A stretch of 64,000 nucleotides of DNA from Streptomyces sp. NBC_00536 (GTDB taxonomy: Bacteria; Actinomycetota; Actinomycetes; Streptomycetales; Streptomycetaceae), in assembly GCF_036346295.1 (NCBI RefSeq), contig NZ_CP107819.1, forward strand, positions 124,001 through 188,000. Direction: 5' to 3'. The first letter of the stretch is position 1. Each line of letters opens with the position of its first letter. The position numbers and the translations under genes were made by a program. The notes under the pieces were generated by a model that saw nothing but the letters and a program-made list of their open reading frames with translations, was not told the origin of the DNA and did not search any database. Of this stretch, positions 21,508 through 59,135 are shown in pieces.

Positions 21508-23454
21508 TTACCTGCGGTACGAGGAGACGTAGCCCGAGGCCGGCGAACCGACGCCCGTCACCACGTCGTAGCCGCGGACGGCGGCCAGCGAACTGTCCTT
21601 GCCGAGGCTGCGGGCCGAGGTCAGCACCCCGCCCGAGGCATCGACGCGGTTCACGAAGTCGAGGCGGGCGACGGCCAGGTCACGGTCCTTGCCCAGCGGG
21701 TGGTCCGTGACGTCGTGGTAGAGCGGGGTTCCGAACCGGGAGTAGATCGCGGGGTTCGCGAAGCCGATCGGGAAGTGGCGGGCCTGCTGCGCCAGCGCCT
21801 GCACGCCGGCGATGACCGGGGCCGCGAGCGAGGTACCGCCGATGCGGTATTCGTCGTACGAGACCGATCCGTCGGGCCAGGTCTGCGTCTGCCCGACGAG
21901 GAAGCCCGTGTTGGGGTCCGCGATGGCCGCGATGTCCGGCACGGTGCGCATCCGCGCGGCGCCGTTCGCCTTGGCGAGTGCGTCCGGCACGACACCCCGC
22001 TGGTAGAAGGGCTGGGCGACGGTCCCGCTCGTGCCACCGCCCGCGCCGCTCGTGTAAGCGCCCGGGAAGCCCGTCCAGCTGGCGCCGTCGGCGCTCAGCG
22101 GGGCCTTGAAGGTGCCCCAACCCGTCTCGAACTGGTAGGTGTTGCCCTTGCCGACGGCCAGGGAGGTGCCGCCCACGGCGGTCACCCATGCCGAGTTGGC
22201 CGGGGTGTCGACCTGCTTCTTGCCCGTGTTGGCGACCTCGTCCCCGTTGTCGCCCGAGGAGAAGTAGAAGCCGATGCCCTCGATGGCTCCGAGTTTGAAC
22301 GTCTGGTCGTAGGCCGCCGCGATGTCCGGGGTCTCGTTGGCCTCGATGTCGCCCCAGGAGTTGGAGACGATGTCGGCCAGCCGGCTGTCCACGACCTTGT
22401 TCAGGGCGTCCAGCAGGTCGGGGTCGTTGCACGAGGCACCGGCGACGTACACGATGTCCGCGTCCGGTGCGACGGCGTGGACGGCCTCGACGTCGAGGGT
22501 CTCTTCGCCGTACCAGCCGGACGCGTCGCACGCCTCGGTCGCCGTGTAGTCGCCGGGCACGACCTGGCGGAGCTGATTCGCCTTGTAGGGCTTGTCACCG
22601 TTGCGCTGGGCGTAGTTCTGCGCGTCCTGGGCGATGGTCGGCGAAGCGTACGCGTCCGTGATGGCCACGGTCACGCCCTGGCCGGTGTACCCGCCCGCGC
22701 CGTAGGCCGCCCGCAGCTGCTGGCCCGTGTAGCCCCTGACCGCGTAGGGAATCTTCGTGCCGTTGGCGTCGGGCAGCGTCGTCGCGACGTTCGACCCGAA
22801 GTAGGTGGAGAAGGGGCCCGCGTTACGGAAGCCGGCGCCCGGGCCGGGCAGGGTGTCCTGGTGCGTGGACGTGTGCGGCGCGTTGTCCAGGCCGGTCACG
22901 GTGAGCACCGCGCCCGCCAGGTCCCCGGGGGCGGAGGCCGTCTTCGAGGGGGCCCGGTAGACCTTGTCGCCCTTGCGGTAGTCGTGCAGCTGGGTGGCGA
23001 AAGCCTTCTCCGCCGCCGCCACGTCTCCGGAGACGGATATGTAGTGCTGGTTCGAGCCGGTGACGGAGAGGCCGGCCTGCTGGAGCCAGTGGGTGACGGC
23101 CCCGATCTGGTCGGCGGTCGCCCCGAAGCGCTGCTGCGCCTCGGCGGGGCTCAGGTACTTCCCGTAGGTGGCGGAGTGCGGGTCCGAGACGGCCGCGGCG
23201 TACGCGCTGAGGCCCTTCGCGTCCCGACCGGCCAGGTACACCCGGGCGTTCACCTTGGTGGAGGGAGCGGATCCGCCCTGGTCGGCGGAGGCGGTGGCCC
23301 AGGAGGGCTGGGTTCCTTCCAGGGCCGCCCTCCCTCCGGGGACCGGCCCGGCTGCCTGCGCGGACGGTATCGCGAGGGCGAACGCGCCGGTGAGCAGCGG
23401 GAGTGTCGCTGCCATGGCGCCCAGGGTGCGGCGCCGCGTGCGGGTGCTTCTCAA
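21508..23454 (-). CDS. Secreted S53 (sedolisin) peptidase
   Basis: A 648-residue acid serine-carboxyl peptidase. A signal peptide (about 1-34) is followed by a pro-kumamolisin activation domain (about 45-190) and the catalytic domain (about 235-640). The catalytic Glu317 and Asp321 are in GEETLDVEAVHAVAPDADI, the oxyanion Asp402 in SSGDNGD, and Ser542 in GGTSLAAPV. A C-terminal calcium-site region is expected near DVTDHPLG and GVGSPASG. The protein is exported as a zymogen and self-processes at low pH. Start is TTG at 23454, with AGGGG 7 nt upstream. Confidence 0.9.
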   Translation of the reverse strand: MRSTRTRRRTLGAMAATLPLLTGAFALAIPSAQAAGPVPGGRAALEGTQPSWATASADQGGSAPSTKVNARVYLAGRDAKGLSAYAAAVSDPHSATYGKYLSPAEAQQRFGATADQIGAVTHWLQQAGLSVTGSNQHYISVSGDVAAAEKAFATQLHDYRKGDKVYRAPSKTASAPGDLAGAVLTVTGLDNAPHTSTHQDTLPGPGAGFRNAGPFSTYFGSNVATTLPDANGTKIPYAVRGYTGQQLRAAYGAGGYTGQGVTVAITDAYASPTIAQDAQNYAQRNGDKPYKANQLRQVVPGDYTATEACDASGWYGEETLDVEAVHAVAPDADIVYVAGASCNDPDLLDALNKVVDSRLADIVSNSWGDIEANETPDIAAAYDQTFKLGAIEGIGFYFSSGDNGDEVANTGKKQVDTPANSAWVTAVGGTSLAVGKGNTYQFETGWGTFKAPLSADGASWTGFPGAYTSGAGGGTSGTVAQPFYQRGVVPDALAKANGAARMRTVPDIAAIADPNTGFLVGQTQTWPDGSVSYDEYRIGGTSLAAPVIAGVQALAQQARHFPIGFANPAIYSRFGTPLYHDVTDHPLGKDRDLAVARLDFVNRVDASGGVLTSARSLGKDSSLAAVRGYDVVTGVGSPASGYVSSYRR

Positions 23455-23697: not shown

Positions 23698-25329
23698 TCA
23701 GCGGCCCTGGAGGGACCTGACGTTGTCACCGAAGGTCCAGCCCTTCGAGCCGTCCCAGTTGACCGACCAGGTCATGAGCCCCTTCAGCGAACCGCCGAAG
23801 GCGTTCCACGACTGGCTGACCAGGCTCGGCGCCATGTAGCCGCCGCCCGCGCCCGGCTGGGCGGGCAGCCCGGGCACCTGCTTGTCGTAGGGGACCTTGA
23901 TGGTGGTGCCCTGGATGGTCAGGCCGTTGTTCAGGCAGGTGGTCTGCGCGGTGAATCCCTGGACCGTACCGGCCTGGTAGGAGTCACCGGAGCAGCCGTA
24001 CATGCTGCCGTTGTAGTACTGCATGTTCAGCCACCACAGCCGCCCGTTGTCGGCGTACTTCTTGATGATCGGCAGGTAGGACCCCCAGATGGACCCGTAG
24101 GTCACGCTTCCGCCGGTGACGTACGCGGTCTCGGGGGCCATCGTCAGGCCGAAGCCCGCGGGCATCTGGGCCAGTACGCCGTCGATGATGCGCATCAGGT
24201 TGGCCTGGGAAGCGGACAGGGTGTTGATGTTGCCGCTTCCGGACAGGCCGGTCTCGATGTCGATGTCGATCCCGTCGAAGTTGTACTTCTTCAGGATCGG
24301 GACGACGGTCGCGACGAACCGGTCGGCGACCGTACTGGAACTCAGGTCGATGCCCGCGGCGGCGCCGCCGATCGACATCAGGATCGTCGCCCCGGCCGCC
24401 TTGGCCTGGCACATCTCGGCGGGGGTCGAGACCTTGACGTTGGCGTCCATGCCGTCCTGCCACTGGACGGTGCCGTCCGAGAGGATCACCGGGAAGGCCG
24501 CGTTGATGACGTTGTATCCGTGGGCGGCGATCCGGCTGTCCGTGATGGGCACCCAGCCCATGCCGGGGTGGACGCCGTTGGAGGCGCCGTCCCAGTTCTC
24601 CCAGTACCCCTGCAGCACCTTGCCCGACGGCTTGGGCTTCGTGGGACAGCTGCCGCCGGGCGGGGTGGTGGTCGGGGGCGCGGTGGTGGGCGGTGCGGTG
24701 GTGGGGGGTGCCGTCGTCGGGGGCGCGGTGGTAGGCGGCGCGGTGGTCGGCGGGGTCGCGGTCGGCGTGGGGTTGCCGCCGCCGGGGCCGGTGAGCGAGA
24801 CGTCGTCCGCGTAGTACGCGGGCTGCCCGTACCAGCCGTGCAGGTAGACGGTCACCGAGGTGGTGCTCGGCCCGGTGGTGAAGGCGACGCTGAGTTGGCC
24901 GTACGACGGGCTGCTCGGCGTCCAGGTCGACGGGGTTCCGGTGATGCCGGTGCCGGTGGCGCCCAGGTAGACGTAGCTTCCCTGGACGTAAGCGCTCAGC
25001 GTGTACTGCGAGTTGGGCTGCACGCTGATGGTCTGGGTGCACTGCGCGTTGTCCTGGCCGGTCGGCGTGGCCTTGAGCGCCGCGGCGCCGGAGTGGACCG
25101 GACTGCCGACGGCCGCGCCGGAGCCGCCGGAGCAGGACCAGTCGGACAGTCCGTTCTCGAATCCGGAGTTGGCCACCAGGTTGGTGGTGACCGCCCCGGC
25201 CGTGACGGTCCCGGCCACGGCCATGCCCGCACCGATGACGGCGACCGCGCTCATCCCGGCGAGGGAACGCCGTAGGACGGTTGGTCCGCGCTGGGCGCGG
25301 TCGGTCGTGCGTGATCTCCGACGGAACAT
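23698..25329 (-). CDS. Secreted GH18 chitinase with N-terminal binding module
   Basis: A 543-residue extracellular chitinase. A signal peptide with twin-Arg character (RRSLAGMSAVAVIGAGMAVAG) is followed by a beta-sandwich carbohydrate-binding module (about 48-180, NLVANSGFENGLSDW, CBM16-like), a Pro-Thr linker of PPTTA repeats (about 190-225), and the GH18 barrel (about 236-540). The catalytic motif F-D-G-I-D-I-D-I-E gives acid Glu359 with Asp355 and Asp357; SIGG marks the substrate strand. It hydrolyses chitin endo- or processively. A DasR-like site (25460-25475) lies about 130 nt upstream, consistent with GlcNAc control. Confidence 0.92.
   Translation of the reverse strand: MFRRRSRTTDRAQRGPTVLRRSLAGMSAVAVIGAGMAVAGTVTAGAVTTNLVANSGFENGLSDWSCSGGSGAAVGSPVHSGAAALKATPTGQDNAQCTQTISVQPNSQYTLSAYVQGSYVYLGATGTGITGTPSTWTPSSPSYGQLSVAFTTGPSTTSVTVYLHGWYGQPAYYADDVSLTGPGGGNPTPTATPPTTAPPTTAPPTTAPPTTAPPTTAPPTTTPPGGSCPTKPKPSGKVLQGYWENWDGASNGVHPGMGWVPITDSRIAAHGYNVINAAFPVILSDGTVQWQDGMDANVKVSTPAEMCQAKAAGATILMSIGGAAAGIDLSSSTVADRFVATVVPILKKYNFDGIDIDIETGLSGSGNINTLSASQANLMRIIDGVLAQMPAGFGLTMAPETAYVTGGSVTYGSIWGSYLPIIKKYADNGRLWWLNMQYYNGSMYGCSGDSYQAGTVQGFTAQTTCLNNGLTIQGTTIKVPYDKQVPGLPAQPGAGGGYMAPSLVSQSWNAFGGSLKGLMTWSVNWDGSKGWTFGDNVRSLQGR
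24661..24755 (-). repeat. 15-bp tandem repeats encoding PPTTA linker
   Basis: Six imperfect 15-bp units encode the repeated Pro-Pro-Thr-Thr-Ala linker between the chitinase binding module and the catalytic domain. The copy number may vary between strains. Confidence 0.8.
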
Positions 25330-25533: not shown

Positions 25534-25962
25534 TCAGGCCAGCTGTTCACGCACCCATGCGGGATCGGGGTTGGTGTGTGGCCGGCCCGCCACGACGACG
25601 GTCGGCACGGTCTCGTTGCCGTTGTTGGCCGCCCTCACCGCTGCGGCTGCTGCCGGGTCTCGCCAGATGTTGACCCAGTACAGCCGGCGGGCGTTGCGGC
25701 CCAGCCGGATACGCATTCGTATGCAGTACTTGCAGCCCGGCCGCCAGAAGACGACCGGTCGGCCATCGGCCGCGCTGCGGCGCTGAGCCTCCAGCGCACC
25801 CATCGATCTCGGGAAAACCAGAGGCGAGTTCACGCCTGCGAGCAGCACGAACACCGGCAGGAATGCTGCCGCTTCGCCGGGGCTCCCGCTGAAGAGCAGT
25901 CCGGTCGAAACGAGTGAGCCGCAGAGCACAAGCAGTATCGGCAAGATCCAAGTGCGCGTCAT
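25534..25962 (-). CDS. Membrane-anchored glutaredoxin-like protein
   Basis: A 142-residue protein. Two membrane helices (about 5-23, ILPILLVLCGSLVSTGLL, and 32-47, AAFLPVFVLLAGV) precede a glutaredoxin/mycoredoxin fold. The redox motif is W-R-P-G-C-K-Y-C, and the conserved cis-Pro loop is ETVPTVVVAG. The Trx-fold part ends with a typical helix (DPAWVREQLA). It would reduce disulfides or mycothiol mixed disulfides at the membrane. The ATG at 25962 is chosen because the upstream version (26016) reads into the preceding gene spacer. It lies 61 nt downstream of the RiPP-locus JmjC gene and may or may not belong to it. Confidence 0.75.
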   Translation of the reverse strand: MTRTWILPILLVLCGSLVSTGLLFSGSPGEAAAFLPVFVLLAGVNSPLVFPRSMGALEAQRRSAADGRPVVFWRPGCKYCIRMRIRLGRNARRLYWVNIWRDPAAAAAVRAANNGNETVPTVVVAGRPHTNPDPAWVREQLA

Positions 25963-26023
25963 GACGACACAGACTATCGATGGGTCGAAACGCTCCTCGA
26001 ACGACGAGTTGCACACCTTCCGC

Positions 26024-27304
26024 CTATGTACGGGTCAGGGCGCGGAAGGATTCCAGGGACTCCAGCAGGCGGCGGGCCTCTTCGTGGGCGGTGGGGGGCA
26101 GGGCGGCCAGCAGCTCGCGGACCGGGACCGGCTCCCGGTCGGCGAGCCGGCGCAGCAGCGGTTCCAGCTGGTGCCGTGTCAGGACGGTGCGCGCCACGTG
26201 CCCGTTGGCGGCGCACAGCAGCGCCCCGTCGGCCCGCTCGTGCAGGATCCGGGCGCGGGCTCGTACCGCCGTGCCGTCGTCCAGGGGCTGCGGCACCTCG
26301 GGCGGGGGTACGGGGCACAGGCCGGAGGCGCTCCAGTTGCGGAGCGAGACCGAGGCGACCCGGTCCCGCATCCGGTCGGGGTCGCGGTACTCCTGGAAGA
26401 CGCGCAGGGTCTGCTCCAGCGCTTCGGGCAGTGCGCCGTCCGCGGGCGGTTCGGGCACCGACAGCGGGGCTGTGGCGGCGGGCAGCCGCACCAGGCCGGC
26501 GTCCGGGTCGACCATCGCGTCCGGGGCCTTGCCCAGCAGCAGGTCGTCCACGTCGTAGACCGCGCGGTGCGCCTCGCGCGGCACGCCGACGTTGACGCTG
26601 GTCGCGGCCCCGCCGTCGACGCTCTCGCCGACGTGGTAGTAGTCCGCGGGCCAGTACAGCAGGTCGCCGGGCTCGGGCTCGGCGGTGAACGAGGAGGCCA
26701 GGTAGGGCTGGTAGTCGAGCACGGTGGTCACCGGCTCGGTCCAGGGGCGCTCCCGCCAGAACCGCATCCGCTTGCGGCCTTCGAGGGCGAACAGGAAGGT
26801 CGCGAAGCGGTCCTTGTGGACGCCGACCGGGGTGTGCTCGTAGTTGCCGTGGAAGAGCGTCGTGATCGCCCCCGACAGCGGCAGCCCGGCACGCTCCCAC
26901 AGCGGTTCGAAGAACGCCCGCTCGCGCTCCCACTGTCCGGCGTGGAAGGCGTGGAAGGCGTGCACGACCAGCGCGTACCGGGTCTCCTTCGAGAAGGCCG
27001 CCAGCTCGGTGTCCAGCCGCCGCCGGTAGCCGTCGAACGTGCCGTCACCCGTGCGCGGGAACCAGTCCGCGGGCTCGGTCTGCTGGAAGCGTCCGACGGC
27101 GAACTGCGCGTTCGGCGGCATCAGGTACGAGCTGGGCGGCCGGGTGGCGAGCGTGGTGGCGGCGAAGACCTCGCGCAGCTCGAAGGGTGCCGAGCGGACG
27201 GCCTTGATCAGCACCGGGCGCCGGTCCCAGTAGTGTGCGGTGAACTCGTCCCAGTCGAGGGGGCCTTGGACGACGGCCAGGTCACCCACGTGTGCTGTTG
27301 TCAT
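26024..27304 (-). CDS. JmjC-type Fe(II)/2-oxoglutarate oxygenase of the RiPP locus
   Basis: A 426-residue protein of the ribosomal-oxygenase (YcfD/NO66-like) JmjC group. The double-stranded beta-helix runs from about 90 to 260. The iron facial triad is intact: His163-x-Asp165 in GVHKDRFATF and His224 in YWPADYYHVGES. The C-terminal about 100 residues (VRTVLTRHQLEPLLRRLADREPVPVRELLAAL) look like the winged helix of this group. Such enzymes hydroxylate His, Arg or other side chains in proteins. The ATG overlaps the preceding gene stop by 4 nt, and the coupled LanM-like gene makes the precursor peptides at 30917-31361 the likely substrates. Confidence 0.8.
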   Translation of the reverse strand: MTTAHVGDLAVVQGPLDWDEFTAHYWDRRPVLIKAVRSAPFELREVFAATTLATRPPSSYLMPPNAQFAVGRFQQTEPADWFPRTGDGTFDGYRRRLDTELAAFSKETRYALVVHAFHAFHAGQWERERAFFEPLWERAGLPLSGAITTLFHGNYEHTPVGVHKDRFATFLFALEGRKRMRFWRERPWTEPVTTVLDYQPYLASSFTAEPEPGDLLYWPADYYHVGESVDGGAATSVNVGVPREAHRAVYDVDDLLLGKAPDAMVDPDAGLVRLPAATAPLSVPEPPADGALPEALEQTLRVFQEYRDPDRMRDRVASVSLRNWSASGLCPVPPPEVPQPLDDGTAVRARARILHERADGALLCAANGHVARTVLTRHQLEPLLRRLADREPVPVRELLAALPPTAHEEARRLLESLESFRALTRT

Positions 27305-28497
27305 CCGTCCGTCCTCTCGGCGTCGGCCAGTTCGATCCCGCGCAGCCGGTAGAGCTTGCGCAGCAGCGCGGTCACGACGCTGTTGTCCTCGTCCGTGCCC
27401 ACCGCCCGGCACAGCTCACCGACCGTCAGTTCGCTGCCGGGCCGCAGTTGTTGGGCGATCCGTTCCCCCGCCGCCCCGCCGATCGGGAAGGCGTGCCCGT
27501 TGACGGCCCAGATCCGGCGGCCGGGCCCGTCCGGCAGCCGGACGATCTCGCGCACCACGCGCAGCCGCTGCCCGGGGGTGAGCGGGACGTCGGCGCGCGG
27601 CTCGGGTGCGGGTTCCAGCCCGGCAGAGGAGCACCAGGCCGCCCACCGGGTGCGCAGCGCGGCGGGCAGCTCCGCGCCCCCGGCTGCCGCGCGGGCCGCC
27701 TCGCCGACGGCGATCATGGGGGCGGGCGGGGCGGCCGGTCCGCCGGTGGGTGGGGGGTAGGGCAGGCAGGGCACCGTGCCGTCGTACTCCAGGCGGTCCC
27801 GTACCTCCTCGGCCAGCAGGTTCTTGACCGCGCCGGTCGCCAGGCGCTGCGCACGGGGGACGGAGATACGCAGCGTCACGCAGCCGTCGAGGTGGTGTTC
27901 GCGCCAGCGGGAGCCCTCCGGCCAGTACAGCAGTTCGCCGGAGCCGGCCCGCAGTACGCGCGGCTCGCCGTCCGCCCCGTACAGTTCGGCCTCCAGTACG
28001 CCGTCGAGCACCCAGGTCAGCACCGCGTGCTCGGAGTCGATGGCCAGGCCCCGGACCCGGGTGAAGTCGTCCCCCTCGGTCAGCTCGGCCTCGACCGGCA
28101 GGCACGGCCAGCCCACCTGGCGCCACAGCTCGGTGAGGCGGTCGCGAACGGCGGACCACAACGGATAGTCGGTGTGCAGCGGCTGACGGACGCTCAGCAG
28201 GAATCCCGTGTCCGGCCCGCTGCCGGTCGGCTCGCTGCGCATCCGGTCCCGGTAGGCGGCCGGGCCCGGGTCGGCGGCGTCGGGCAGCAGCCGTCCCGGC
28301 GCGCCGAGCCAGCCGAGCGGGGTGTGGAAGCGGACCTGCGGGAAGGTCCGGAACACCGTTCCGGCGCGGAAGGACGCGCAGGCGGCGACGATGGTGCGGT
28401 GGACGTGCGCCGGGTCCGCCGGGGCCGCGGCCGGGAGTACGGCGGGCTCCTTGCCCCAGGCGCGGGCGAGGAGTTCGGTCCAGTCGGTCGCGATCAC
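27301..28497 (-). CDS. JmjC-like protein lacking metal ligands (putative partner subunit)
   Basis: A 398-residue protein of the same layout as its downstream neighbour: cupin core with GELLYWPEG matching GDLLYWPAD, and a C-terminal winged helix (VTALLRKLYRLRGIEL). Aligning AIDSEHAVLTWVLDG with VHKDRFATFLFALEG places Ile153 and Ser155 at the HxD ligands, and Trp198 at the distal His. It therefore appears unable to bind iron in the usual way. It may be a scaffold or leader-binding half of a heterodimer. The GTG start overlaps the LanM-like stop by 4 nt, and its own stop overlaps the next start by 4 nt. Confidence 0.7.
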   Translation of the reverse strand: MIATDWTELLARAWGKEPAVLPAAAPADPAHVHRTIVAACASFRAGTVFRTFPQVRFHTPLGWLGAPGRLLPDAADPGPAAYRDRMRSEPTGSGPDTGFLLSVRQPLHTDYPLWSAVRDRLTELWRQVGWPCLPVEAELTEGDDFTRVRGLAIDSEHAVLTWVLDGVLEAELYGADGEPRVLRAGSGELLYWPEGSRWREHHLDGCVTLRISVPRAQRLATGAVKNLLAEEVRDRLEYDGTVPCLPYPPPTGGPAAPPAPMIAVGEAARAAAGGAELPAALRTRWAAWCSSAGLEPAPEPRADVPLTPGQRLRVVREIVRLPDGPGRRIWAVNGHAFPIGGAAGERIAQQLRPGSELTVGELCRAVGTDEDNSVVTALLRKLYRLRGIELADAERTDG

Positions 28498-30827
28498 GCC
28501 TGTACCCCTTCAGTGTCGGGTGCCGGGTACTTCTCAGCCAGCAGGGCCGCGTAGTCGGCGAGCGGATCGAGGCCGACGGCCGCGCGGCGCTCGTCCACCC
28601 GCTCCTCGTCCTCGATCGGGCAAGGCCGCAGCGCGCCGCCCGCGACCCGCTCGAACTTCGTGCCGTACAACTGCGGGCGGCCCTCGGCCCGGCGCAGCGC
28701 GTCGGTGAGGTGGGCGACATCGCGCCGGAGCATGTCGCCGTCCTCGGCCGCGGTCTCGATCAGGGCCAGGCACTCGCGCTGGAACGCGAGGTCACCGGTG
28801 TGGTGCTGGAGCAGCGCGCTCGCCACCGTGGCGGCCTCCTCACCGACCAGGCTCCGGCCGGGCCAGCCGTGCTCGGCGACCACGCCCCGCAGCCAGGAGA
28901 TCCCGGCGCCGGTCAGCCGGTCGAGCCGCGCTTCCAGCTCGGTGTCGGTGAAGCCCCCGGCGGCCCAGGGAGCGCGCAGCGACGCGTCGATCCGGCCCAG
29001 GCGCAGCAGACGTTCGCGGATCTCGGCGGCCGTCCGCGCCGGCCCTGCCTCGTCGGTCAGGGAGTCGATGCGCAGCCGCAGCTTCGCCTCGTCCCACACA
29101 TAGGTGATGCGGCGGGCCGCCTCCGGCCAGTCGAAGGACACCTCGCCCTCGCGCGGGCCGCGCAGCCTGAGCCGTACCCCGTGCTCGGGGTCGTGCAGCT
29201 CGCTCCGCTCCGGGTCCAGATCGCCGTGTACGTGCTCGACCGCGTCGCGCAGCGCGATGCCGAGCCCGGCGAGGTCCAGCTTCCCGCCCTCGCGGACGGC
29301 GGCGACCGGTGGCCAGGGCCGGTCCTCGCCCCATCCGGGGGCGTCGGTCGGGTACGTCCGCAGCTCGCGGCCGGGCGGCATCCGCATCGCCAGCAGCGGA
29401 CCGCCGTCGGCCGCGCGGAAGAAGTACGGGACGTCGCCGCGGGCGAGCTGCTCCAACTCGCCGTCCGTGAACGGGATGTCGCTGCCGTGCGGGTATTCGG
29501 CGGTCGGGCGGGCGATCAACCGCACCACGTGCCCGGCGGCCCGCTCCCCGATGAACTCCGCGATCCGGGCGCGGCCCCGGCACATCAGCGTCCAGGCGTC
29601 GAACATGCCGCGCAGCAGCGCCGTCAGGTAGGGGCCGTATCCGGCGCGGCCCCCGGTGTCCCCGACCACCGTGCGGGTCTCGGTCCGGGTCAGGGACAGG
29701 GTCCGCCGTTCCAGTCGCAGCGAGCCGTCCGGCTGGGGGCGCCAGCAGGTCGCGGGGCCGTCCAGCTCACACCAGCGGGCGACGTTCTCCAGGCCGGTGT
29801 GGTGCTGCGCGGAGACCGCGGGGTCGTACAGCAGCCCGGTCTCGAACAGCCGGTCCAGACCGGCGAAGTACGCCTCCAGGTCGACCGGGAACAGCAGCGG
29901 CTCGCCGTCCCCCGGGCGCTGGCCGATCAGCACGTTGCCGCCGATCAGGTCGGCGATCCCGAACGCGAACGCGGCGGCGGCCAGCGATCCGGCGCGGTGC
30001 CAGTAGCGGGCCGCGGCCCCGGGGTCGAGGACGGCGCCGCGCAGGCTCAGCTCTCCGTCGGTACGCAGGACGCCCCAGGCGTCCGGCGGCTCGATCCACT
30101 CCTGCCAGGAGTAGCAGGCCCGGTCCGGGCCACTGCCCGTCCAGCACCTCATGATCGGCAGCCGGATCGGACCGGACGCCGGGGGCAGCCCGTTGAGCAG
30201 GGTGAACACCGAGTCCTCGGGGGCCAGGAAGAGGATCTCGCCGGTCGCCGGGCGCGGCTTGTAGGCGAGCCGGGCGCCGTCGGCGAACTCGACGCGCAGC
30301 ACCCGCTGTCCGCCGTTGTGCGTCTCCTCGCCGTTCGCCCACAGGCCGGTGACCCGGCGGTCGGAGGGCTGGTCGCGGGCCAGCCGCTCCAGGAAGAGGG
30401 TGAGGAACTCCAGGTACTGCTGGGCCCGTTGGGCGACGAAGGCGGCGGCGCGCTCGGGCGGTTCGTCCACACAGGCTTCCAGGGCCTCGGTGAGCAGCGG
30501 CCCGAACAGATCCGCGTTCTCCGGTCGTAGCACCTGCGGATCGAACCGCCGGGTGTCCGTGTCGGCCCGCGCGGACCAGGCGTCGATCCGCCGCAGCACC
30601 TCGTGCAGCGGGGCGAAGCGGGCGTCGGCCAGTGCGTGCGCCAGAGCCCGCGCGTCGGACGGGCCGCCCAATGGGCGTTCGATGACGAGCGTGCCGTCCG
30701 GCCCGGGGCGGACCACGGGCGGGAACGCCCCGCCCGCCCTGCCGTCGGCCAAGGCCGCCATCAACCTCCGCGTGGTGGGCGGAAGTTCGGGTGCGCCGAT
30801 GGCGCCGCCGGGATCGCGCAGTTCCAT
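28494..30827 (-). CDS. LanM-type dehydratase without cyclase, fused to DUF6624-like domain
   Basis: A 777-residue enzyme. Residues about 60-640 match the class II lanthipeptide dehydratase (DUF4135). Motifs seen: His170 in EETHNGG, Lys190 in LAYKPRP, DLIGGN (293-298; the second position His of the usual DxH is Ile), Asp316 in VDLEAY, and Arg436/Thr442 in VRLIARPTAEY with the spacing of the known phosphate-elimination pair. It should phosphorylate and eliminate Ser/Thr hydroxyls to dehydroamino acids. No LanC cyclase domain follows: there are no zinc ligands (CHG or similar). Instead about 680-770 resemble DUF6624 (QLYGTKFERVAGG...PIEDEERVDERRAAVGL). It is downstream of two precursor genes and a hairpin. 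Confidence 0.82.
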   Translation of the reverse strand: MELRDPGGAIGAPELPPTTRRLMAALADGRAGGAFPPVVRPGPDGTLVIERPLGGPSDARALAHALADARFAPLHEVLRRIDAWSARADTDTRRFDPQVLRPENADLFGPLLTEALEACVDEPPERAAAFVAQRAQQYLEFLTLFLERLARDQPSDRRVTGLWANGEETHNGGQRVLRVEFADGARLAYKPRPATGEILFLAPEDSVFTLLNGLPPASGPIRLPIMRCWTGSGPDRACYSWQEWIEPPDAWGVLRTDGELSLRGAVLDPGAAARYWHRAGSLAAAAFAFGIADLIGGNVLIGQRPGDGEPLLFPVDLEAYFAGLDRLFETGLLYDPAVSAQHHTGLENVARWCELDGPATCWRPQPDGSLRLERRTLSLTRTETRTVVGDTGGRAGYGPYLTALLRGMFDAWTLMCRGRARIAEFIGERAAGHVVRLIARPTAEYPHGSDIPFTDGELEQLARGDVPYFFRAADGGPLLAMRMPPGRELRTYPTDAPGWGEDRPWPPVAAVREGGKLDLAGLGIALRDAVEHVHGDLDPERSELHDPEHGVRLRLRGPREGEVSFDWPEAARRITYVWDEAKLRLRIDSLTDEAGPARTAAEIRERLLRLGRIDASLRAPWAAGGFTDTELEARLDRLTGAGISWLRGVVAEHGWPGRSLVGEEAATVASALLQHHTGDLAFQRECLALIETAAEDGDMLRRDVAHLTDALRRAEGRPQLYGTKFERVAGGALRPCPIEDEERVDERRAAVGLDPLADYAALLAEKYPAPDTEGVQA

Positions 30828-30859
30828 TCAGTCCCCAGCCAGGCGGTCGATTAAAACGG

Positions 30860-30896
30860 CCGCGCGGCGCGGCCGGTCGGGGCCGGCGCCGCGCGG
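30860..30896 (-). terminator. Attenuator hairpin between precursor and LanM gene
   Basis: In the 89-nt gap between precursor 1 and the dehydratase gene, 30860-30874 pairs with 30881-30896 (15 bp, one bulged G, 6-nt loop). The minus-strand transcript then runs into TTTT, so it is an intrinsic-terminator-like element. It would keep precursor mRNA in excess over enzyme mRNA, as is common in RiPP operons. Confidence 0.7.
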
Positions 30897-30916
30897 CGTC
30901 GTGATGTGCGCCGTAC

Positions 30917-31084
30917 TTAGAAGCAGCAGTAGACGCCCGCGCAGGACGACGAGTGCGGGAAGCTCATCATTCTGGTCTCCTGGTGGTCCGGGACGCCCTG
31001 CTCCAGGTCACCGATCACCAGGTCGAACGCCTCGTCCGCGGTGAGGGTGTCACCCGGTCGCGGCTGAACGGTCGAAGTCTCCAT
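30917..31084 (-). CDS. RiPP precursor peptide 1
   Basis: A 55-residue peptide. The leader (about 1-35) carries TVQPRPGDTLTADEAFDLVIGDLEQ, split here as TVQPRPGDTLTADEAF and DLVIGDLEQ. The C-terminal core is TRMMSFPHSSSCAGVYCCF, rich in Ser and Cys, with four Ser and three Cys available for dehydration and thioether formation. The start ATG follows AGGGG at the right spacing. It shares leader and the S-C-x-x-V-Y-C ending with precursor 2. The first gene downstream is the LanM-type dehydratase. No typical Gly-Gly cleavage site is visible. Confidence 0.8.
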   Translation of the reverse strand: METSTVQPRPGDTLTADEAFDLVIGDLEQGVPDHQETRMMSFPHSSSCAGVYCCF

Positions 31085-31138
31085 CGATATCCCCTGACGG
31101 TAGAAGTGGCACAGTTGGATGTGGCACAGCACGAGTCG

Positions 31139-31162
31139 GGTGCCGCCGAAACCGGCGGCACC
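31139..31162. other. Stem-loop between the two precursor genes
   Basis: A perfect 10-bp stem with a 4-nt loop (31139-31148 and 31153-31162) in the 130-nt gap between precursor 2 and precursor 1. It could stabilise or process the mRNA. Confidence 0.5.
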
Positions 31163-31185
31163 GCGACGTGGTTCGGGGTGGAGCC

Positions 31186-31209
31186 GTTCCCGGGGAAAGC
31201 TCCGGGAAC
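31186..31209. other. Second stem-loop between the precursor genes
   Basis: An 8-bp stem (31186-31193 with 31202-31209) immediately after the precursor 2 stop codon at 31215-31217. Together with the hairpin at 31139-31162 it makes a tandem structure in the intergenic mRNA. Confidence 0.45.
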
Positions 31210-31214
31210 TCTTG

Positions 31215-31361
31215 CTACAGCATGCAGTAGACGCGGTGACAGCTCCCGATGTCCCGGGTGCTTTCCGGAGCATCCTGCTCCAGCTCACCGATGACGAGGT
31301 CGAACTCCTCGTTGGTGATGCGAGTGTCGCCCAGCGGTGCTTGTACGGTAGGAGCTTCCAT
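31215..31361 (-). CDS. RiPP precursor peptide 2
   Basis: A 48-residue peptide, first in the operon. Leader: PTVQAPLGDTRITNEEF then DLVIGELEQ, nearly identical to precursor 1. Core: APESTRDIGSCHRVYCML, with Ser/Thr and two Cys, ending in the shared S-C-x-x-V-Y-C-x-hydrophobic pattern. It has an excellent ribosome site (AGGAGG about 7 nt upstream). Sequence similarity between the two short genes in leader and C-terminus, with divergence between, is the strongest evidence that both are expressed precursor peptides. Confidence 0.82.
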   Translation of the reverse strand: MEAPTVQAPLGDTRITNEEFDLVIGELEQDAPESTRDIGSCHRVYCML

Positions 31362-31473
31362 GGAGAGTCCTCCTGACAGAAGTGGCACCACAGGCCACCA
31401 CGACCTCTGGTGACCAGGTGTCGAGCGGCTTCACTGAATACGCAATGGTCGCTCGTGACGCGACCGCCAGTCA

Positions 31474-31495
31474 GTGTTGCCCAGCTGGACAACAC
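31474..31495. promoter_or_regulatory. Palindrome upstream of RiPP operon
   Basis: A 22-bp dyad (GTGTTGCCCAG then CTGGACAACAC, one mismatch) about 115 nt upstream of precursor 2. On the minus strand it directly follows TTGACG, a good -35, so it is likely an operator overlapping the RiPP promoter. Confidence 0.55.
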
Positions 31496-31549: not shown

Positions 31550-32455
31550 TCACGAGTCACTGCTCTCACGTCTGAAACCACCCGCGTGGTCGACGGCCCA
31601 CCTCGCGAAGGTACCGGCCGGTGTGCCGGTGAGCCGCTCGACGTGATCGGTGATGAGGTGTGACTCCGGTCGGCGCACCGAGGCGGCCAGCAGTGCTTCC
31701 ACCAGGCGCTCCGGACGGCCGTCCGCGAGCATGCGCGATCGAGCGAGATCAACGGGAAGCGGCCGGAAGCTCAGAGGGCGCCGGAGTGCGGCGCCGAGTC
31801 GAGCGACCTGGTCGCCGCGGTCGAGCACCTCGGGTCCAGTCAACAGGTAGGTTTTCGGGTCCAGTTGGGTGCGGTCCGGCGCGAGCAGTACGGTGACCGC
31901 CGCATCGGCGACATCGCGTTCGTCGACAACGGCCGTGCGCGCCATGTCCGGGCCCGCGATCAGGTCACCCACCCGCAACTGCGCGCCCCAACCACGGGCG
32001 TTGGAGGCCATCGTGTCGCTGCGCAGTACCACGGGCCGCAACCCCGCCTCACGCAGCAGGACTTCCATGTCGACGTGCACCTGGACGATGGGATCGCTCT
32101 GGCGGGCGGCGCCGTCATCGATGGCGGTCGAGGACACGTAGACGACACGGGGCGCGGCCGCGATGAGTTCCGCGACCACGTGGTGGGCGGGGTCGGTGTC
32201 GAGCAGCGGCCAGATGAGAAGGACGGCGTCGACGCCCTGGAGTGCGGCACGGAACACCGCGGGGTCCGTGAGGTCACCGACCACCGACTCGACCGCGGAG
32301 CGGGGGCCGGTGGTGGGACGGTGCACGAGGCGGCGTACGCGCGCGCCCTGTGCCAGGAGGCGGTCGACGACCTCACGGCCGAGATTGCCGGCCGCGCCGG
32401 TGACCAGGACCGATGGACCGTCATGGGTGCCCGTGGGGCGAGGGGTGTCAGGCAT
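31550..32455 (-). CDS. NAD(P)H-binding NmrA-like oxidoreductase
   Basis: A 301-residue atypical SDR. The Rossmann motif is VLVTGAAGNLGREVVDRLLAQGARVRRLVHRP (about 17-48 with G-x-x-G-x-x-G), followed by VVGDLTDP and VVYVSSTAIDD. The active-site Tyr-x-x-x-Lys is not obvious, as in NmrA/azoreductase-like members that act on quinones or sense redox state. It is divergent from a MerR regulator; the promoter (32463-32493) has the MerR 19-bp spacer and the transcript would be nearly leaderless. It ends near the RiPP promoter but is probably a separate unit. Confidence 0.85.
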   Translation of the reverse strand: MPDTPRPTGTHDGPSVLVTGAAGNLGREVVDRLLAQGARVRRLVHRPTTGPRSAVESVVGDLTDPAVFRAALQGVDAVLLIWPLLDTDPAHHVVAELIAAAPRVVYVSSTAIDDGAARQSDPIVQVHVDMEVLLREAGLRPVVLRSDTMASNARGWGAQLRVGDLIAGPDMARTAVVDERDVADAAVTVLLAPDRTQLDPKTYLLTGPEVLDRGDQVARLGAALRRPLSFRPLPVDLARSRMLADGRPERLVEALLAASVRRPESHLITDHVERLTGTPAGTFARWAVDHAGGFRRESSDS

Positions 32456-34979: not shown

Positions 34980-36209
34980 ATGGGTGCAAACAAGAGCGGC
35001 TTCTCCGAGGCCGGACTGCGCAGACTGCGCGAGGTACTGGCCCGGCACGTCGAGTCCAAGAGGATTCCCGGGCTGGTCGCCCTGGTCAGCCGTGACGGGC
35101 AGACGCACGTCGAAGCGATCGGGACGATGCGTCATGACGGCGGTACGCCGATGCGCCGGGACACGATCTTCCGGATGGCGTCCACCTCCAAGCCGGTGAC
35201 GACGGCGGCGGCGATGGTCCTGCTCGACGAGTGCAGGCTGCGCCTGGACGAGCCGGTGGACCCGTGGCTGCCCGAACTCGCCGACCGCCGGGTGCTCAAG
35301 CGGCCCGACGGCCCGCTGGAGGACACCGTGCCGGCCAGGCGGCCGATCACCGTACGGGACCTGATGACCTCCACCTTCGGGCTCGGAGTGGACTTCGATC
35401 TGATGGACTCCCCCATCAGGGCCGCGACCTTCGCGCGGACCGACTACAGCGTGGTGTCCGGGCCGGCGCCCGGGCCGGACGAGTGGATGCGCCGCCTCGG
35501 CGAGCTGCCTCTGTCGTACCAGCCCGGAGAACGGTGGCAGTACGACCTCAGCAACGAAGTGCTCGGCGTGCTGGTCGCCAGGGTCACGGGCCGGCCGTTG
35601 GAAACGTTCCTGCGCGAACGCGTCCTCGATCCGCTGGGGATGAAGGACACGGCCTTCCACGTGCCCGCCGACAAGATCGACCGGCTGCCGCCCCTGTACG
35701 GGCCCGACCCGCGGACCGGGGAGTTCCTCGTGTGGGACGAGGCGGAAGGCGGAAGGACCAGTCGGCCCCCGGAGTTCCAGGGCGCCGGCGGCGGTCTGGT
35801 CTCCACCGCCGACGACTACCACGCCTACTTCCGGATGCTGCTGAACCACGGCATGCACGGCGGCGAACGGATCCTGTCCCGGGCCGCAGTCGAGCTGATG
35901 ACCACCAACCGCCTCACGCCCGGGCTACAGGAAGCCCGGGACGCCATGTACCGGAACATCGCCCACCTCACGGTCGGCCAGGGGCAGCAGGGCGGCTGGG
36001 GTTTCGGCATGGCGGTACGGACCCGTCGTGGCGACCACGCGCCCATCGGCCAGTTCGGCTGGGACGGCGGCACCGGCACCACGGCCCACGCCGACCCGGG
36101 CAGCCGGATCACCGGAATCCTGCTCACCCAGGTCGGCATGTCCACCCCGGACTCGGCGCGGCTCATCCACGACTTCTGGACCACGCTCCACCAGGCCGCC
36201 GACCACTGA
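34980..36209 (+). CDS. Serine beta-lactamase-like hydrolase
   Basis: A 409-residue cytosolic member of the class C/esterase family. The active-site motif SxxK is Ser68-Thr-Ser-Lys71 (MASTSKPVTT). The second motif region is WQYDLSNEVLG; the third-box equivalent lies near FGWDGGTGTTAHADP. It lacks a signal peptide, which favours an esterase or D-aminopeptidase-like role over antibiotic resistance. The ATG at 34980 follows GGAATGGAG. It is probably controlled by the divergent MerR regulator. Confidence 0.85.
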   Translation: MGANKSGFSEAGLRRLREVLARHVESKRIPGLVALVSRDGQTHVEAIGTMRHDGGTPMRRDTIFRMASTSKPVTTAAAMVLLDECRLRLDEPVDPWLPELADRRVLKRPDGPLEDTVPARRPITVRDLMTSTFGLGVDFDLMDSPIRAATFARTDYSVVSGPAPGPDEWMRRLGELPLSYQPGERWQYDLSNEVLGVLVARVTGRPLETFLRERVLDPLGMKDTAFHVPADKIDRLPPLYGPDPRTGEFLVWDEAEGGRTSRPPEFQGAGGGLVSTADDYHAYFRMLLNHGMHGGERILSRAAVELMTTNRLTPGLQEARDAMYRNIAHLTVGQGQQGGWGFGMAVRTRRGDHAPIGQFGWDGGTGTTAHADPGSRITGILLTQVGMSTPDSARLIHDFWTTLHQAADH

Positions 36210-44756: not shown

Positions 44757-46226
44757 TCACTCCGCCCCGCCGGGCGTGGGGCCGGGGACCGCCGTGGCCG
44801 GGCGGCCGGGGAGGAGGAGGGAGCCGAGGGCCGCGCAGGCCGTGAAGACGGCGGCGCAGAGGAAGGCGTGGCCGTAGTCGGCGGTGAGCGCCTGCACCCC
44901 GGGGCTGAGGTGGCCGCGAGCCGTGTGGGCGGCGATGGCGGCGAGGATCGCGAGGCCGAGGGCGCCGCCGACCTGGCGGGAGGTGTTGACCAGCCCGGAG
45001 ACCAGTCCCGCTTCGCGCCGGTCGATGCCGGCGGTGGCCGCGGCGGTGACGGGCAGCATGGACATTCCCAGGCCCAGGGCGCAGAACACGAAGGGCGCGG
45101 CCACATCGGTGGTGAACACGCCGCCAGGGGCGATGCGCGAGAGCCACAGGAAACCGAAGGTGCTGATGGCCATGCCGGTGACCAGCAGGGGGCGCGGGCC
45201 GGTGCGGCGGAGAAGGTGGGTGGAGGTCCTCGTACCGATGATGACGGCGAGGCAGCCGGGCAGGAACCACATGCCCGTCTTCAGGGCGCTGAAGCCGAGG
45301 ACCTGCTGGACGTAGAGGGACAGCAGGAACCACATCGCGAACATGGCGGAGCCGAGGGCGATCATGACCAGGTTGGCGATGGCCAGGGTGCGGCGGCGCA
45401 GGACGGCGAGAGGGACCAGTGGGGCGGCGACCTTGGACTCGATCACGGCGAAGGCGGCCAGGAGCAGGATGCCGAGCGTGAGGGCGCCCCAGACCTTCGG
45501 GGAGGCCCAGGGAGAGCTCTCGGTGGAGATGATCCCGTAGACCAGGGCGGTCAGGCCGACGGTGACCGACAGCGCGCCGGGCAGGTCGAGGCGGCGCAGC
45601 CCGCCGTGGCCACGGTGCGCGCCGGACACGTAGAGGAGTGCGGCGGCGAGGATCGCGATCCCGATGGGAACGTTGACGATGAAGACCCAGCGCCAGCCGG
45701 CGTACTGGGTCAGGAGCCCGCCGATCACCGCGCCGGTCGCGCCGCCGACGGCATTGACCGAACTCCAGGCGCCCATCGCGCGGGTACGGGCGCGGGGTTC
45801 GGTGAAGGTGGTCATGATCAGCGTCAGGGTGGCGGGGGCGAGGATCGCTCCCCCGATGCCCTGGACCGCCCGGGCCGTGATCAGGGTCGCGCCGTCGGCG
45901 GCGAGGCCGCAGGCGAGCGAGGCGGCGGTGAAGAGGCCGAGGCCGACCAGGAAGGTCCGGCGGGCGCCGACCAGGTCGGCGGCCCGGCCGCCCAGGAGCA
46001 GCAGCCCGGCGAAGCCGAGGGTGTACGCGCTGACGATCCACTGCTGCCCGGCCGGGCTCAGGCCGAGGGAGGCCTTCATGTCCGGGAGGGCGACGTTCAC
46101 GATCGAGACGTCCAGCACGACCATGAACTGGGCGGCGCAGGCGATCAGCAGGATCATCGCCGTCCACCCGCCGCGGCGGGTGGACGGCGCGGGTTCGGTG
46201 CTGACGGCGGGCGGAGCACTTGACAT
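44757..46226 (-). CDS. DHA2-family (EmrB/QacA) MFS drug exporter
   Basis: A 489-residue transporter with about 14 membrane helices. The family signatures are VVLDVSIVNVALPDMKASLG in helix 1, LLLLGGRAADLVGARRTFLVG (loop 2-3), AVQGIGGAILAPATLTLI, and GWRWVFIVNVPIGI. It exports drugs or metabolites by proton antiport. The ATG at 46226 is chosen: upstream sequence is basic and lies in the divergent promoter region. A 19-bp perfect palindrome (46347-46388) lies upstream. The neighbouring P450-amidohydrolase pair may make its substrate. Confidence 0.9.
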   Translation of the reverse strand: MSSAPPAVSTEPAPSTRRGGWTAMILLIACAAQFMVVLDVSIVNVALPDMKASLGLSPAGQQWIVSAYTLGFAGLLLLGGRAADLVGARRTFLVGLGLFTAASLACGLAADGATLITARAVQGIGGAILAPATLTLIMTTFTEPRARTRAMGAWSSVNAVGGATGAVIGGLLTQYAGWRWVFIVNVPIGIAILAAALLYVSGAHRGHGGLRRLDLPGALSVTVGLTALVYGIISTESSPWASPKVWGALTLGILLLAAFAVIESKVAAPLVPLAVLRRRTLAIANLVMIALGSAMFAMWFLLSLYVQQVLGFSALKTGMWFLPGCLAVIIGTRTSTHLLRRTGPRPLLVTGMAISTFGFLWLSRIAPGGVFTTDVAAPFVFCALGLGMSMLPVTAAATAGIDRREAGLVSGLVNTSRQVGGALGLAILAAIAAHTARGHLSPGVQALTADYGHAFLCAAVFTACAALGSLLLPGRPATAVPGPTPGGAE

Positions 46227-46346
46227 GTGGTTCCTCAGGGGCAGGGGAACGGGCTCGGGTCGGGACAAAGCCCACCGCATGTCTGCCCCCGCACAGGTCC
46301 GCCGTCACAGCCGCGCGGCAACCGGGTGACCTGCGGGTCGGTCGCA

Positions 46347-57065: not shown

Positions 57066-59135
57066 TCAGGAGGACTGGCTGGTCAGGATGGCCGGGTCGG
57101 AGAGGCCTGCCGCGCCGGTCTCGACCTTGCCCGCGAAGCGGCGGGCGAAGTCCGCGGTCCCGGACGCGGTGACCGTCACGTCGTACCAGCGGCGGGTGTT
57201 CTTCAGCGGGACGCTGTAGGTCACGGTCGCCCCCTTGGCGACCGTGATCCGCTTCGGGCCGCCGCCGTAGGCGTTGGTGACCGTGAGGGTCGCGGTCGAG
57301 GCTCCCGCGTTGGTGAGGGTGAGGTCCAGGTTGCCGGTCTTGGCATTGTGGCGGGCCGTGGCCTCGGGGCCGGCGGTGGTGCCGGGGTTGCGGAAGCCGC
57401 GCAGGAAGCCGTTGGGGCCGTGCACGGTCAGGTCGGTGACACCGGCCGAGTAGGCGGTGTTCCAGGTGTCCGTGACCGACTTGCCCGCCTCGGTGGTGTA
57501 GGTCCAGGGGGCGTCGGTCCGGTTGCCGGAGGTGACGTAGAACTGCGCGCCCAGCTCCTGGCCACCGCTGAACGTCAGCCGGAACTTGCCCTCGCCGGTC
57601 AGTGCCGTGCCGTCGACGTACGGGGCGTACTTCAGCGGACGCGTCGGGCACACCCCCTTCTCCTGGCGCGGCATGGCCGCCACGGCGGGCGGGGTGGCCG
57701 GGAAGTCGGGGTGCCGGTCGCGGTCCTGCGGCTGCCAGCGGCCGGTGTCGGGCAGCGGCGCCGGAGCGGTGTCCTTGCGGGCGAAGTCGAAGGCGGAGGT
57801 CAGGTCACCGCAGACGGCGCGCCGCCAGGGAGAGATGTTGGGCTCGTGCACACCGAAGCGCTGCTCCATGAAGCGGATGACGGAGGTGTGGTCGAAGGTC
57901 TCGGAGCAGGAGTAGCCGCCCGTGCTCCAGGGTGAGACCACGAGCATCGGCACGCGCGGGCCGAGCCCGTACGGTCCGGCGACGTAGCCGGCCGTGCCCG
58001 GGAAGACGTCGAGTGCGGTGTCCACGGTCGACAGGCCCTGGCCGGCGTTCGCGGGGGCGTAGGGCGGCACGACGTGGTCGAAGAAGCCGTCGTTCTCGTC
58101 GTAGGTGATGAACAGGGCCGTACGGGCCCAGACGTCGGGGTTGGACGTGAGCGCGTCCAGCACCTGCGCGATGTACCAGGCGCCGTAGTTGGAGGGCCAG
58201 TTGGCGTGCTCGCTGAAGGCCTCGGGGGCGGCGATCCAGGAGATCTGGGGCAGGGTGCCCGCGGTGACGTCGGCGCGCAGCCGGTCGAAGTAGCCCTCCC
58301 CGGTCCGGGCGTCGGTGCCGGTGCGGGCCTTCTCGTGGAGCGGGTCACCGGGCTGGGCGCCGCGGTAGTTGTTGAAGTAGAGCAGCGAGTTGTCGCCGTA
58401 GTTGCCGCGGTAGGCATCGCTGATCCAGCCCCAGGAACCGGCGGCGTCGAGGCCGTTGCCGATGTCCTGGTAGACCTTCCAGGAGACCCCGGCCGCCTCC
58501 AGGCGCTCGGGGTACGTGGTCCAGCCGTACCCGGCCTCGGCGTTGTTGAGGACCGGCCCGCCGCCCTTGCCGTCGTTGCCGGTGTGGCCCGACCAGAGGT
58601 AGTAGCGGTTGGGGTCGGTCGAGCCGATGAACGAGCAGTGGTAGGCGTCGCAGAGGGTGAACGCGTCGGCGAGGGCGTAGTGGAACGGGATGTCGTCGCG
58701 CGTCAAGTGTGCCATGGTCGCGGGCGTCTTGGCGGGCACCCAGTTGTCGTACTTGCCCTTGTTGAAGGCGCTCTGGCCGCCCGCCCAGTCGTGGTTGAGG
58801 CCCTGGAGGAACTCCATGCCGAGGTCGTCGGACGGCGGGCGGAAGGGCAGCGTCTCCTTGCCCGCGTTGTCCGTCTGGTGCCATACGGACTTGCCGCTGG
58901 GCAGGGTCACCGGGCGCGGGTCGCCGAAGCCCCGAATGCCGCGCAGCGCGCCGAAGTAGTGGTCGAAGGACCGGTTCTCCTGCATCAGGACCACGATGTG
59001 CTCGACGTCGGCGATGCTGCCGGTCGTCCCCTGCGCGGGGATGGCGGCGGCGCGCGCGATGCTCTCGTTGAGCATGGTCAGGGCGGCGGCGCCGCCGGTG
59101 AGCTGGAGGAAACGACGGCGGTTCAGATCTGCCAT
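57066..59135 (-). CDS. Tat-secreted phospholipase C (phosphoesterase family)
   Basis: A 689-residue enzyme. The twin-arginine signal NRRRFLQLTGGAAALTML (about 5-22) directs Tat export. The catalytic domain (about 40-490) is the alkaline-phosphatase-like phospholipase C family: VLMQENRSFDHYFG has the catalytic Asn/Ser region, and FITYDENDGFFDHVVPP holds metal ligands. The C-terminal about 170 residues hold two beta-sandwich repeats typical of phosphocholine-preferring PLCs (DUF756). It hydrolyses phosphatidylcholine or sphingomyelin outside the cell. The ATG at 59135 is the last before the Tat motif. Confidence 0.9.
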   Translation of the reverse strand: MADLNRRRFLQLTGGAAALTMLNESIARAAAIPAQGTTGSIADVEHIVVLMQENRSFDHYFGALRGIRGFGDPRPVTLPSGKSVWHQTDNAGKETLPFRPPSDDLGMEFLQGLNHDWAGGQSAFNKGKYDNWVPAKTPATMAHLTRDDIPFHYALADAFTLCDAYHCSFIGSTDPNRYYLWSGHTGNDGKGGGPVLNNAEAGYGWTTYPERLEAAGVSWKVYQDIGNGLDAAGSWGWISDAYRGNYGDNSLLYFNNYRGAQPGDPLHEKARTGTDARTGEGYFDRLRADVTAGTLPQISWIAAPEAFSEHANWPSNYGAWYIAQVLDALTSNPDVWARTALFITYDENDGFFDHVVPPYAPANAGQGLSTVDTALDVFPGTAGYVAGPYGLGPRVPMLVVSPWSTGGYSCSETFDHTSVIRFMEQRFGVHEPNISPWRRAVCGDLTSAFDFARKDTAPAPLPDTGRWQPQDRDRHPDFPATPPAVAAMPRQEKGVCPTRPLKYAPYVDGTALTGEGKFRLTFSGGQELGAQFYVTSGNRTDAPWTYTTEAGKSVTDTWNTAYSAGVTDLTVHGPNGFLRGFRNPGTTAGPEATARHNAKTGNLDLTLTNAGASTATLTVTNAYGGGPKRITVAKGATVTYSVPLKNTRRWYDVTVTASGTADFARRFAGKVETGAAGLSDPAILTSQSS

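Follow-up and report, generated by a model that had tools for sequence, protein, structure and literature searches.

The window, a stretch of 64,000 nucleotides from Streptomyces sp. NBC_00536 (contig NZ_CP107819.1, positions 124,001 to 188,000), carries on its minus strand a compact cassette of five genes that resembles a locus for ribosomally synthesized and post-translationally modified peptides (RiPPs). Genes for two related precursor peptides, A and B, are followed by those of a LanM-type dehydratase and of two JmjC-family proteins, here called J2 and J1 (Table 1). A preliminary description of this DNA had proposed a RiPP-like locus of this composition. All five genes are present where it placed them, and the recurrence of the set in 26 distinct loci, the window included, supports the assignment. 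The 4-nt overlaps ascribed to the operon are found at the dehydratase/J2 and J2/J1 junctions, but not between the precursor genes, which lie 130 nt apart, each behind a Shine-Dalgarno-like stretch. The ATG start of the dehydratase at 30827 is backed by the MELRD N-terminus common to its close relatives.

Table 1. Cassette features, in window coordinates.
Feature	Position	Strand	Basis and remarks
Cassette (2 precursor genes, dehydratase, J2, J1)	26024–31361	-	Gene calls
Precursor peptide A, 48 aa	31215..31361	-	Leader ...EEFDLVIGELEQ, C-terminus GSCHRVYCML; Shine-Dalgarno-like stretch, homologues
Precursor peptide B, 55 aa	30917..31084	-	Leader ...EAFDLVIGDLEQ, C-terminus SSSCAGVYCCF; Shine-Dalgarno-like stretch, similarity to A
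Dehydratase (LanM-type DUF4135 + C-terminal DUF6624), 777 aa	28494..30827	-	Pfam, profile, fold
DUF4135 domain, residues 129-445	29493..30443	-	Pfam; CylM/LicM2 by profile and fold
DUF6624 domain, residues 606-767	28527..29012	-	Pfam
J2, JmjC/ROX-fold protein without H-x-D iron site, 398 aa	27301..28497	-	Fold model, alignment
J1, JmjC oxygenase (PF08007, YcfD/NO66-like), H163/D165/H224, 426 aa	26024..27304	-	Pfam, alignment

Precursors, dehydratase and JmjC-family proteins

Precursors A and B are homologous (57% identical over 46 residues, E 1.4e-5), and homologues lie upstream of the dehydratase gene in every related locus. They share the leader motif [F/L]-D-L-x-x-G-[D/E/N]-L-E and a core motif, [S/T]-C-x(3-5)-Y-C, which is present at the C-terminal end of all 30 precursors found. 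As 25 of the precursors were collected by the leader motif alone, the core motif in these is an independent observation; its spacer counts 3, 4 and 5 residues in 19, 5 and 1 of them. The remaining five belong to loci L104, L118, L120, L121 and L122, the last four being accepted on either the leader or the core motif. In shuffled cores, [S/T]-C-x(2-5)-Y-C turns up with a frequency of 0.0085 (29 precursors passing the length filter). The invariant side chains of the motif are the Ser/Thr, the two Cys and the Tyr.

The dehydratase contains a DUF4135 domain (Pfam E 2.6e-19), and CylM and LicM2 are its best PDB matches both by profile and by fold. The VIA-align fold matches span at most residues 15-591 of the model, leaving DUF6624 outside. 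Eight of the nine CylM phosphorylation and elimination positions are kept or conservatively replaced in 19 of 19 aligned dehydratases (D364 being placed by motif only); R506 and T512, which CylM needs for elimination, are matched in every one. A zinc LanC domain is missing, as the preliminary description had stated: PF05147 does not match the protein, and TIGR03897 reaches 36.2 bits against a cut-off of 304. Since Pfam detects no LanC-like domain in it, the dehydratase also lacks the fusion by which the LanMbC enzymes of dehydrazole pathways are recognised. The place held by LanC in LanM proteins is taken by a DUF6624 domain (Pfam E 4.4e-16), which had previously been missed. A designed repeat protein that phmmer matched to the dehydratase was dismissed as a chance hit.

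J1 matches the JmjC_2 family (E 9.3e-7, 28.9 bits against a cut-off of 22), and its H-x-D...H iron site is intact. J2 has no Pfam match, and its structure model adopts the YcfD fold. At the aligned iron site of J2 the Asp is absent in 19 of 19 sequences and the first His in 17 of 19. The two proteins had been described as a JmjC pair, which is correct as to family but not as to two oxygenases, J2 being without H-x-D; we regard J2 as probably a pseudo-oxygenase that acts as a binding partner. The C-terminal part of its model comprises strands within residues 311-338 and helices at 341-350, 359-365 and 373-384, with a short strand between.

Distribution of the cassette and of LanC

The cassette recurs in 25 further genomes. 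Relatives were drawn from samples of close relatives, the genus, the class, the order and plasmids, which overlap and are not independent; the distribution is that among the sampled genomes and not a view of the whole database. The DUF4135-DUF6624 fusion is encoded by 14 of 392 genomes of the genus sample (the window's own included), 3 of 394 of the class sample, where a fourth match is a stand-alone DUF6624, and 15 of 391 of the order sample. A single one of 22 plasmid records matched over most of the dehydratase; it comes from Nonomuraea gerenzanensis, measures 11.85 Mb and is filed as a plasmid. The 19 other plasmid records listed (two of the 22 are unlisted) match in the DUF6624 region only, and none of 24 pattern matches in viral contigs is a relative of the cassette. 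Hosts include Kitasatospora, Streptomyces, Catenulispora metagenome-assembled genomes and N. gerenzanensis. The cassette appears to be a compact gene set of soil actinobacteria that recurs in many genomes.

The order precursor–dehydratase–J2–J1 is kept everywhere, as far as the contigs reach. J2 follows the dehydratase gene in 26 of 26 loci (contig ends cut it in L021 and L121), and J1 comes next in all 24 whose contig extends there (it is cut in L022). The association of the dehydratase with JmjC genes and with a short D-L-x-x-G-x-L-E peptide, anticipated by the preliminary description, is borne out, contig permitting, in all 25 further loci, each with a full-length fusion. Loci L118, L120, L121 and L122 were fetched after the pattern had been noted, and all four fit it as far as their contigs extend. 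Sharing of the cassette by 26 loci is far beyond chance. The gene caller, which is based on GC content at third codon positions, misses genes of lower GC, such as most LanC-clade precursors and the J2 gene of L118; the latter was recovered by a six-frame search. In Kitasatospora cheerisanensis (L027) the dehydratase and J1 frames are broken in the assembly, through sequencing error or decay.

A stand-alone LanC-like gene, mostly overlapping J1, follows J1 in 13 of the 26 loci (L057-L065, L081, L104, L120 and L122). PF05147, run on five of these proteins, matched all (E 5e-43, 2e-47, 2e-43, 7e-47 and 2e-46); the remaining ones were recognised with a profile built from the first nine or through BLAST clustering. 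WCYG and CHG, which we take to be the zinc-site motifs, are kept in nine of nine aligned sequences. The L081 gene lies in several frames, again through sequencing error or decay. The cassette LanC shows 38-41% identity to full-length Kitasatospora LanCs, two of which adjoin LanB proteins by Pfam, and can therefore be called class I-like. Ten loci, among them the window, have no LanC nearby although their sequence extends beyond J1; the contigs of L021, L022 and L121 end too soon to be counted. The term cyclase-less, used earlier for this system, therefore suits the window form but not the family.

The presence of LanC is matched by the composition of the precursors. All 12 LanC-locus precursors counted have four Cys, as does that of L122, whereas 13 of 14 LanC-less ones have two and the other has three. 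The LanC-clade core is nearly invariant, SPTNSGSGT[AS]CG[TS]CA..YCC (L057-L065, L120, L122), and slightly altered in L104. In a tree in which J1 and J2 root each other (L081, L104 and L118-L122 left out), the first branches are those of the LanC-less loci L066, L067 and L069, with the LanC clade nested, so that the pattern calls for either one gain of LanC or two losses. The deep fork is drawn open for J1 (84/83) and is better supported for J2 (97/93); L068 forms a long branch.

Clustering of neighbouring genes in 21 loci revealed nothing more common to the whole family than the precursors and, in part, LanC. The preliminary description had seen no transporter or leader protease in the locus, and around the cassette neither is common to the family. 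Additional flanking genes are common to as many as five LanC-clade loci. The ones examined (5'-nucleotidase, apolipoprotein N-acyltransferase, NUDIX protein, racemase, glycosyltransferase and ceramidase; a few small ones were left out) comprise no transporter or protease.

In the window, the cassette is flanked by an NmrA/NAD-binding protein (31550-32455), which falls in no gene cluster common to at least three of the 21 loci, and on the other side by a 155-aa frame (25547-26014) without a family match. A Pro-kumamolisin/subtilase-type protease is encoded at 21508-23454, 2.6 kb beyond J1; it is probably not the leader protease, because it too is in no cluster common to at least three of the 21 loci. 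The window also encodes a GH18 protein with a carbohydrate-binding domain (23698-25254), a beta-lactamase-family protein (34980-36209), an MFS transporter (44757-46280) and a phospholipase C-type phosphoesterase (57066-59357).

Proposed pathway and alternatives

We think it probable that these genes form a conserved lanthipeptide-related RiPP cassette, of which the window holds the cyclase-less form, and that the product is a dehydrated and oxidised peptide. From the sequences we infer all of the chemistry, as well as the role of J2 as a partner and how the leader is removed and the product exported. The DUF4135 domain would phosphorylate Ser/Thr of the core, including at minimum the invariant residue that precedes the first motif Cys, and would then eliminate the phosphate to give dehydroalanine (Dha) or dehydrobutyrine (Dhb), with DUF6624 as a putative accessory domain. 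J1 would act as an Fe(II)/2-oxoglutarate oxygenase on a core residue. J2, as a catalytically dead paralogue, may hold the leader or J1 through its JmjC-like body and C-terminal winged helix. Leader removal and export would be carried out by unlinked enzymes. In the sister clade a class I-like LanC joins the set, and the core has two extra Cys and a larger number of Ser/Thr; there the product should carry thioether rings. Because no LanC-like enzyme is encoded nearby, the window product would have no LanC-made rings, its Cys being free, disulfide-linked or engaged in spontaneous thioethers; a linear dehydrated peptide is our best guess.

The residue oxidised by J1 was first suggested to be His, Arg or Tyr. 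His or Arg follows the leader motif in 14 of 14 LanC-less precursors counted and in none of 12 LanC-type ones, while J1 keeps its iron site in the LanC clade too. His/Arg was consequently rejected as a universal target, but stays possible for the LanC-less peptides. Tyr is the only aromatic or basic residue present in every core. From this distribution of His and Arg, either the target is Tyr (or Cys, or Ser/Thr) throughout, or it differs between the clades.

Several observations weigh against this pathway. The position of CylM H349 is occupied by Ile (16) or Gly (3) in the 19 dehydratases, which could impair kinase activity; the H349A mutant of CylM kept some activity. The YKP motif was not found in the L118 dehydratase, and the structure model of the dehydratase is poor (mean pLDDT, the predicted local distance difference test score, 64.3). 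Among the 19 J2 sequences, 12 keep the distal iron-site His, those of L066 and L067 keep the first His as well (H-x-P), and many contain H-x-D tripeptides elsewhere, outside the aligned site; some J2 proteins might thus bind a metal. The winged helix of the J2 model is only a candidate RiPP recognition element. The link between LanC and four Cys is confined to one clade and is hence one evolutionary event, not many. Several LanC-less genomes, those of Kitasatospora and of Streptomyces TRM68416, encode LanC-like proteins elsewhere. Finally, the ratio of nonsynonymous to synonymous polymorphism (pN/pS) is 0.23 for the LanC-clade precursors (9 sequences) but 0.74 for those of the window clade (11 sequences), weak evidence of purifying selection, in part because two precursor types are mixed there.

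A bolder version of the proposed pathway can be put forward tentatively. The cassette might define an undescribed lanthipeptide-type class, with a DUF4135-DUF6624 dehydratase and an oxygenase/pseudo-oxygenase pair. Its ancestor, lacking a cyclase, would have produced a dehydrated and oxidised [S/T]C...YC peptide in which J1 perhaps set an oxidative Tyr or Cys linkage; a class I LanC would have been recruited later, as the core gained two Cys, and DUF6624 would represent a novel RiPP domain that acts in catalysis or substrate handling.

Alternatively, the window product could be a genuine lanthipeptide, with its ring formed either spontaneously or in trans by a LanC from elsewhere in the genome. 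The LanC inside the sister-clade cassettes speaks for it. Eight other LanC-less genomes were searched (G908 left out) and seven gave LanC-like matches, some of them stand-alone. Four Kitasatospora/Streptomyces genomes have named LanC-less loci. In three of them, G778, G780 and G781, small clusters combine a short peptide containing Cys with LanC and a gene of about 1,030 aa, which is LanB by Pfam in the two tested; the fourth, G779, has a LanC-like gene in another cluster. However, G262, which bears the cassette and is 100% complete by estimate (320 contigs), has no LanC-like match at E ≤ 0.001, so that the pathway seems to run there without a recognisable LanC. In the window's genome, PF05147 matches only inside long fused frames of 878-1159 aa, and the LanC-less cores have two or three Cys rather than four. 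We judge this alternative unlikely. Small conserved clusters resembling class I lanthipeptide loci were seen at L105, L106 and L107; they consist of LanC, a peptide of about 50 aa that ends in TRCP[VI]CC, and a gene of about 1,030 aa, identified by Pfam as LanB at L105 and L106.

DUF6624 might itself replace LanC as a modifying enzyme, for instance a cyclase acting on Dha/Dhb and Cys. It occupies the exact place of LanC in LanM, and the window copy and 11 stand-alone copies share invariant G-W-P, Q-H, a D and Q-x-Y-G-T. PMC13097080 regards DUF6624, on account of its frequency in graspetide groups, as a possible undiscovered class of biosynthetic enzyme. On the other hand, the dehydratase carries DUF6624 whether or not its locus has LanC, and retention of the domain in LanC-containing cassettes makes a substitute cyclase improbable; it is probably an accessory domain. 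DUF6624 is common in the genus as a stand-alone protein: of 392 genomes, 149 matched at E ≤ 1e-10, the majority of them in this form; the window's genome holds no second copy. In 20 stand-alone neighbourhoods (of about 135 genomes), no cassette dehydratase, J1, J2 or LanC was among the called genes, the caller having missed the DUF6624 gene itself in six. The DUF6624 profile has no convincing relative in the PDB (best E 0.042). DUF6624-like matches on plasmid records of Klebsiella, Sphingomonas and Spirosoma place the domain outside actinobacteria too. At L082, the region of a stand-alone DUF6624 match also encodes a peptide of 55 aa and, after it, an asparagine synthase-like protein (PF00733). 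The peptide was dropped as a graspetide precursor on account of that neighbouring gene, and the arrangement may resemble a lasso peptide cluster.

It is quite improbable that DUF4135 only phosphorylates while J1 hydroxylates His/Arg/Tyr, yielding a phospho- or hydroxypeptide that acts inside the cell. The loss of H349, the lack of an exporter or protease gene common to the family, and the His or Arg of every LanC-less core counted would agree with it, but the elimination residues R506 and T512 are retained and the coupled LanC of the sister clade implies Michael acceptors. A decaying locus that has lost LanC and function is highly improbable: the broken K. cheerisanensis copies, the L081 LanC and the weak selection on window-clade precursors fit it, whereas genes and residues are intact in the other aligned LanC-less loci and the tree requires two LanC losses or one gain.

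Relation to known systems and significance

By its sequences the family is lanthipeptide-like with an optional cyclase. It shares with LanM (CylM, LicM2) the DUF4135 lipid-kinase-like dehydratase and most phosphorylation/elimination residues, but is not a LanM member, since the dehydratase has no LanC domain; DUF6624 stands where LanM has its fused LanC, LanC is separate and class I-like or absent, a JmjC pair is present, and the precursors have no Gly-Gly leader end. The dehydrazole enzyme CcaM, a LanMbC, is likewise a DUF4135 dehydratase without a zinc LanC, and its product has dehydro residues but no lanthionine rings; according to PMC10676384, however, it carries a fused zinc-independent cyclase domain of class III type and depends on YcaO-made azoles, whereas the cassette has DUF6624 and oxygenases. 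BipG of biphenomycin is also a JmjC Fe/2-oxoglutarate hydroxylase that modifies a RiPP precursor, but according to PMC12707348 its target is Orn and its clusters contain a multinuclear non-heme iron-dependent oxidative enzyme (MNIO) and a radical SAM protein and no dehydratase. YcfD, NO66 and MINA53 resemble J1 by sequence and iron site and J2 by fold; unlike them, J1 and J2 stand in an operon with short peptides, and J2 is without H-x-D. DUF6624 adjoins RiPP genes in the graspetide groups too, with ATP-grasp clusters in PMC13097080 and not fused to a LanM-type dehydratase as here. No description of the gene set was found in the open-access PMC literature, as covered by titles, abstracts and passages, with subscription papers mostly outside; the cassette may represent a branch of ribosomal peptide natural products that has not been described before.

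The family offers natural pairs of one pathway with and without a cyclase, so that what LanC adds can be asked directly, as can whether DUF4135 dehydratases serve cyclase-free natural products. It also gives DUF6624, a common and unexplained domain, a testable biochemical setting, and supplies a clear example of an oxygenase that is paired with a paralogue of itself, the latter apparently dead.
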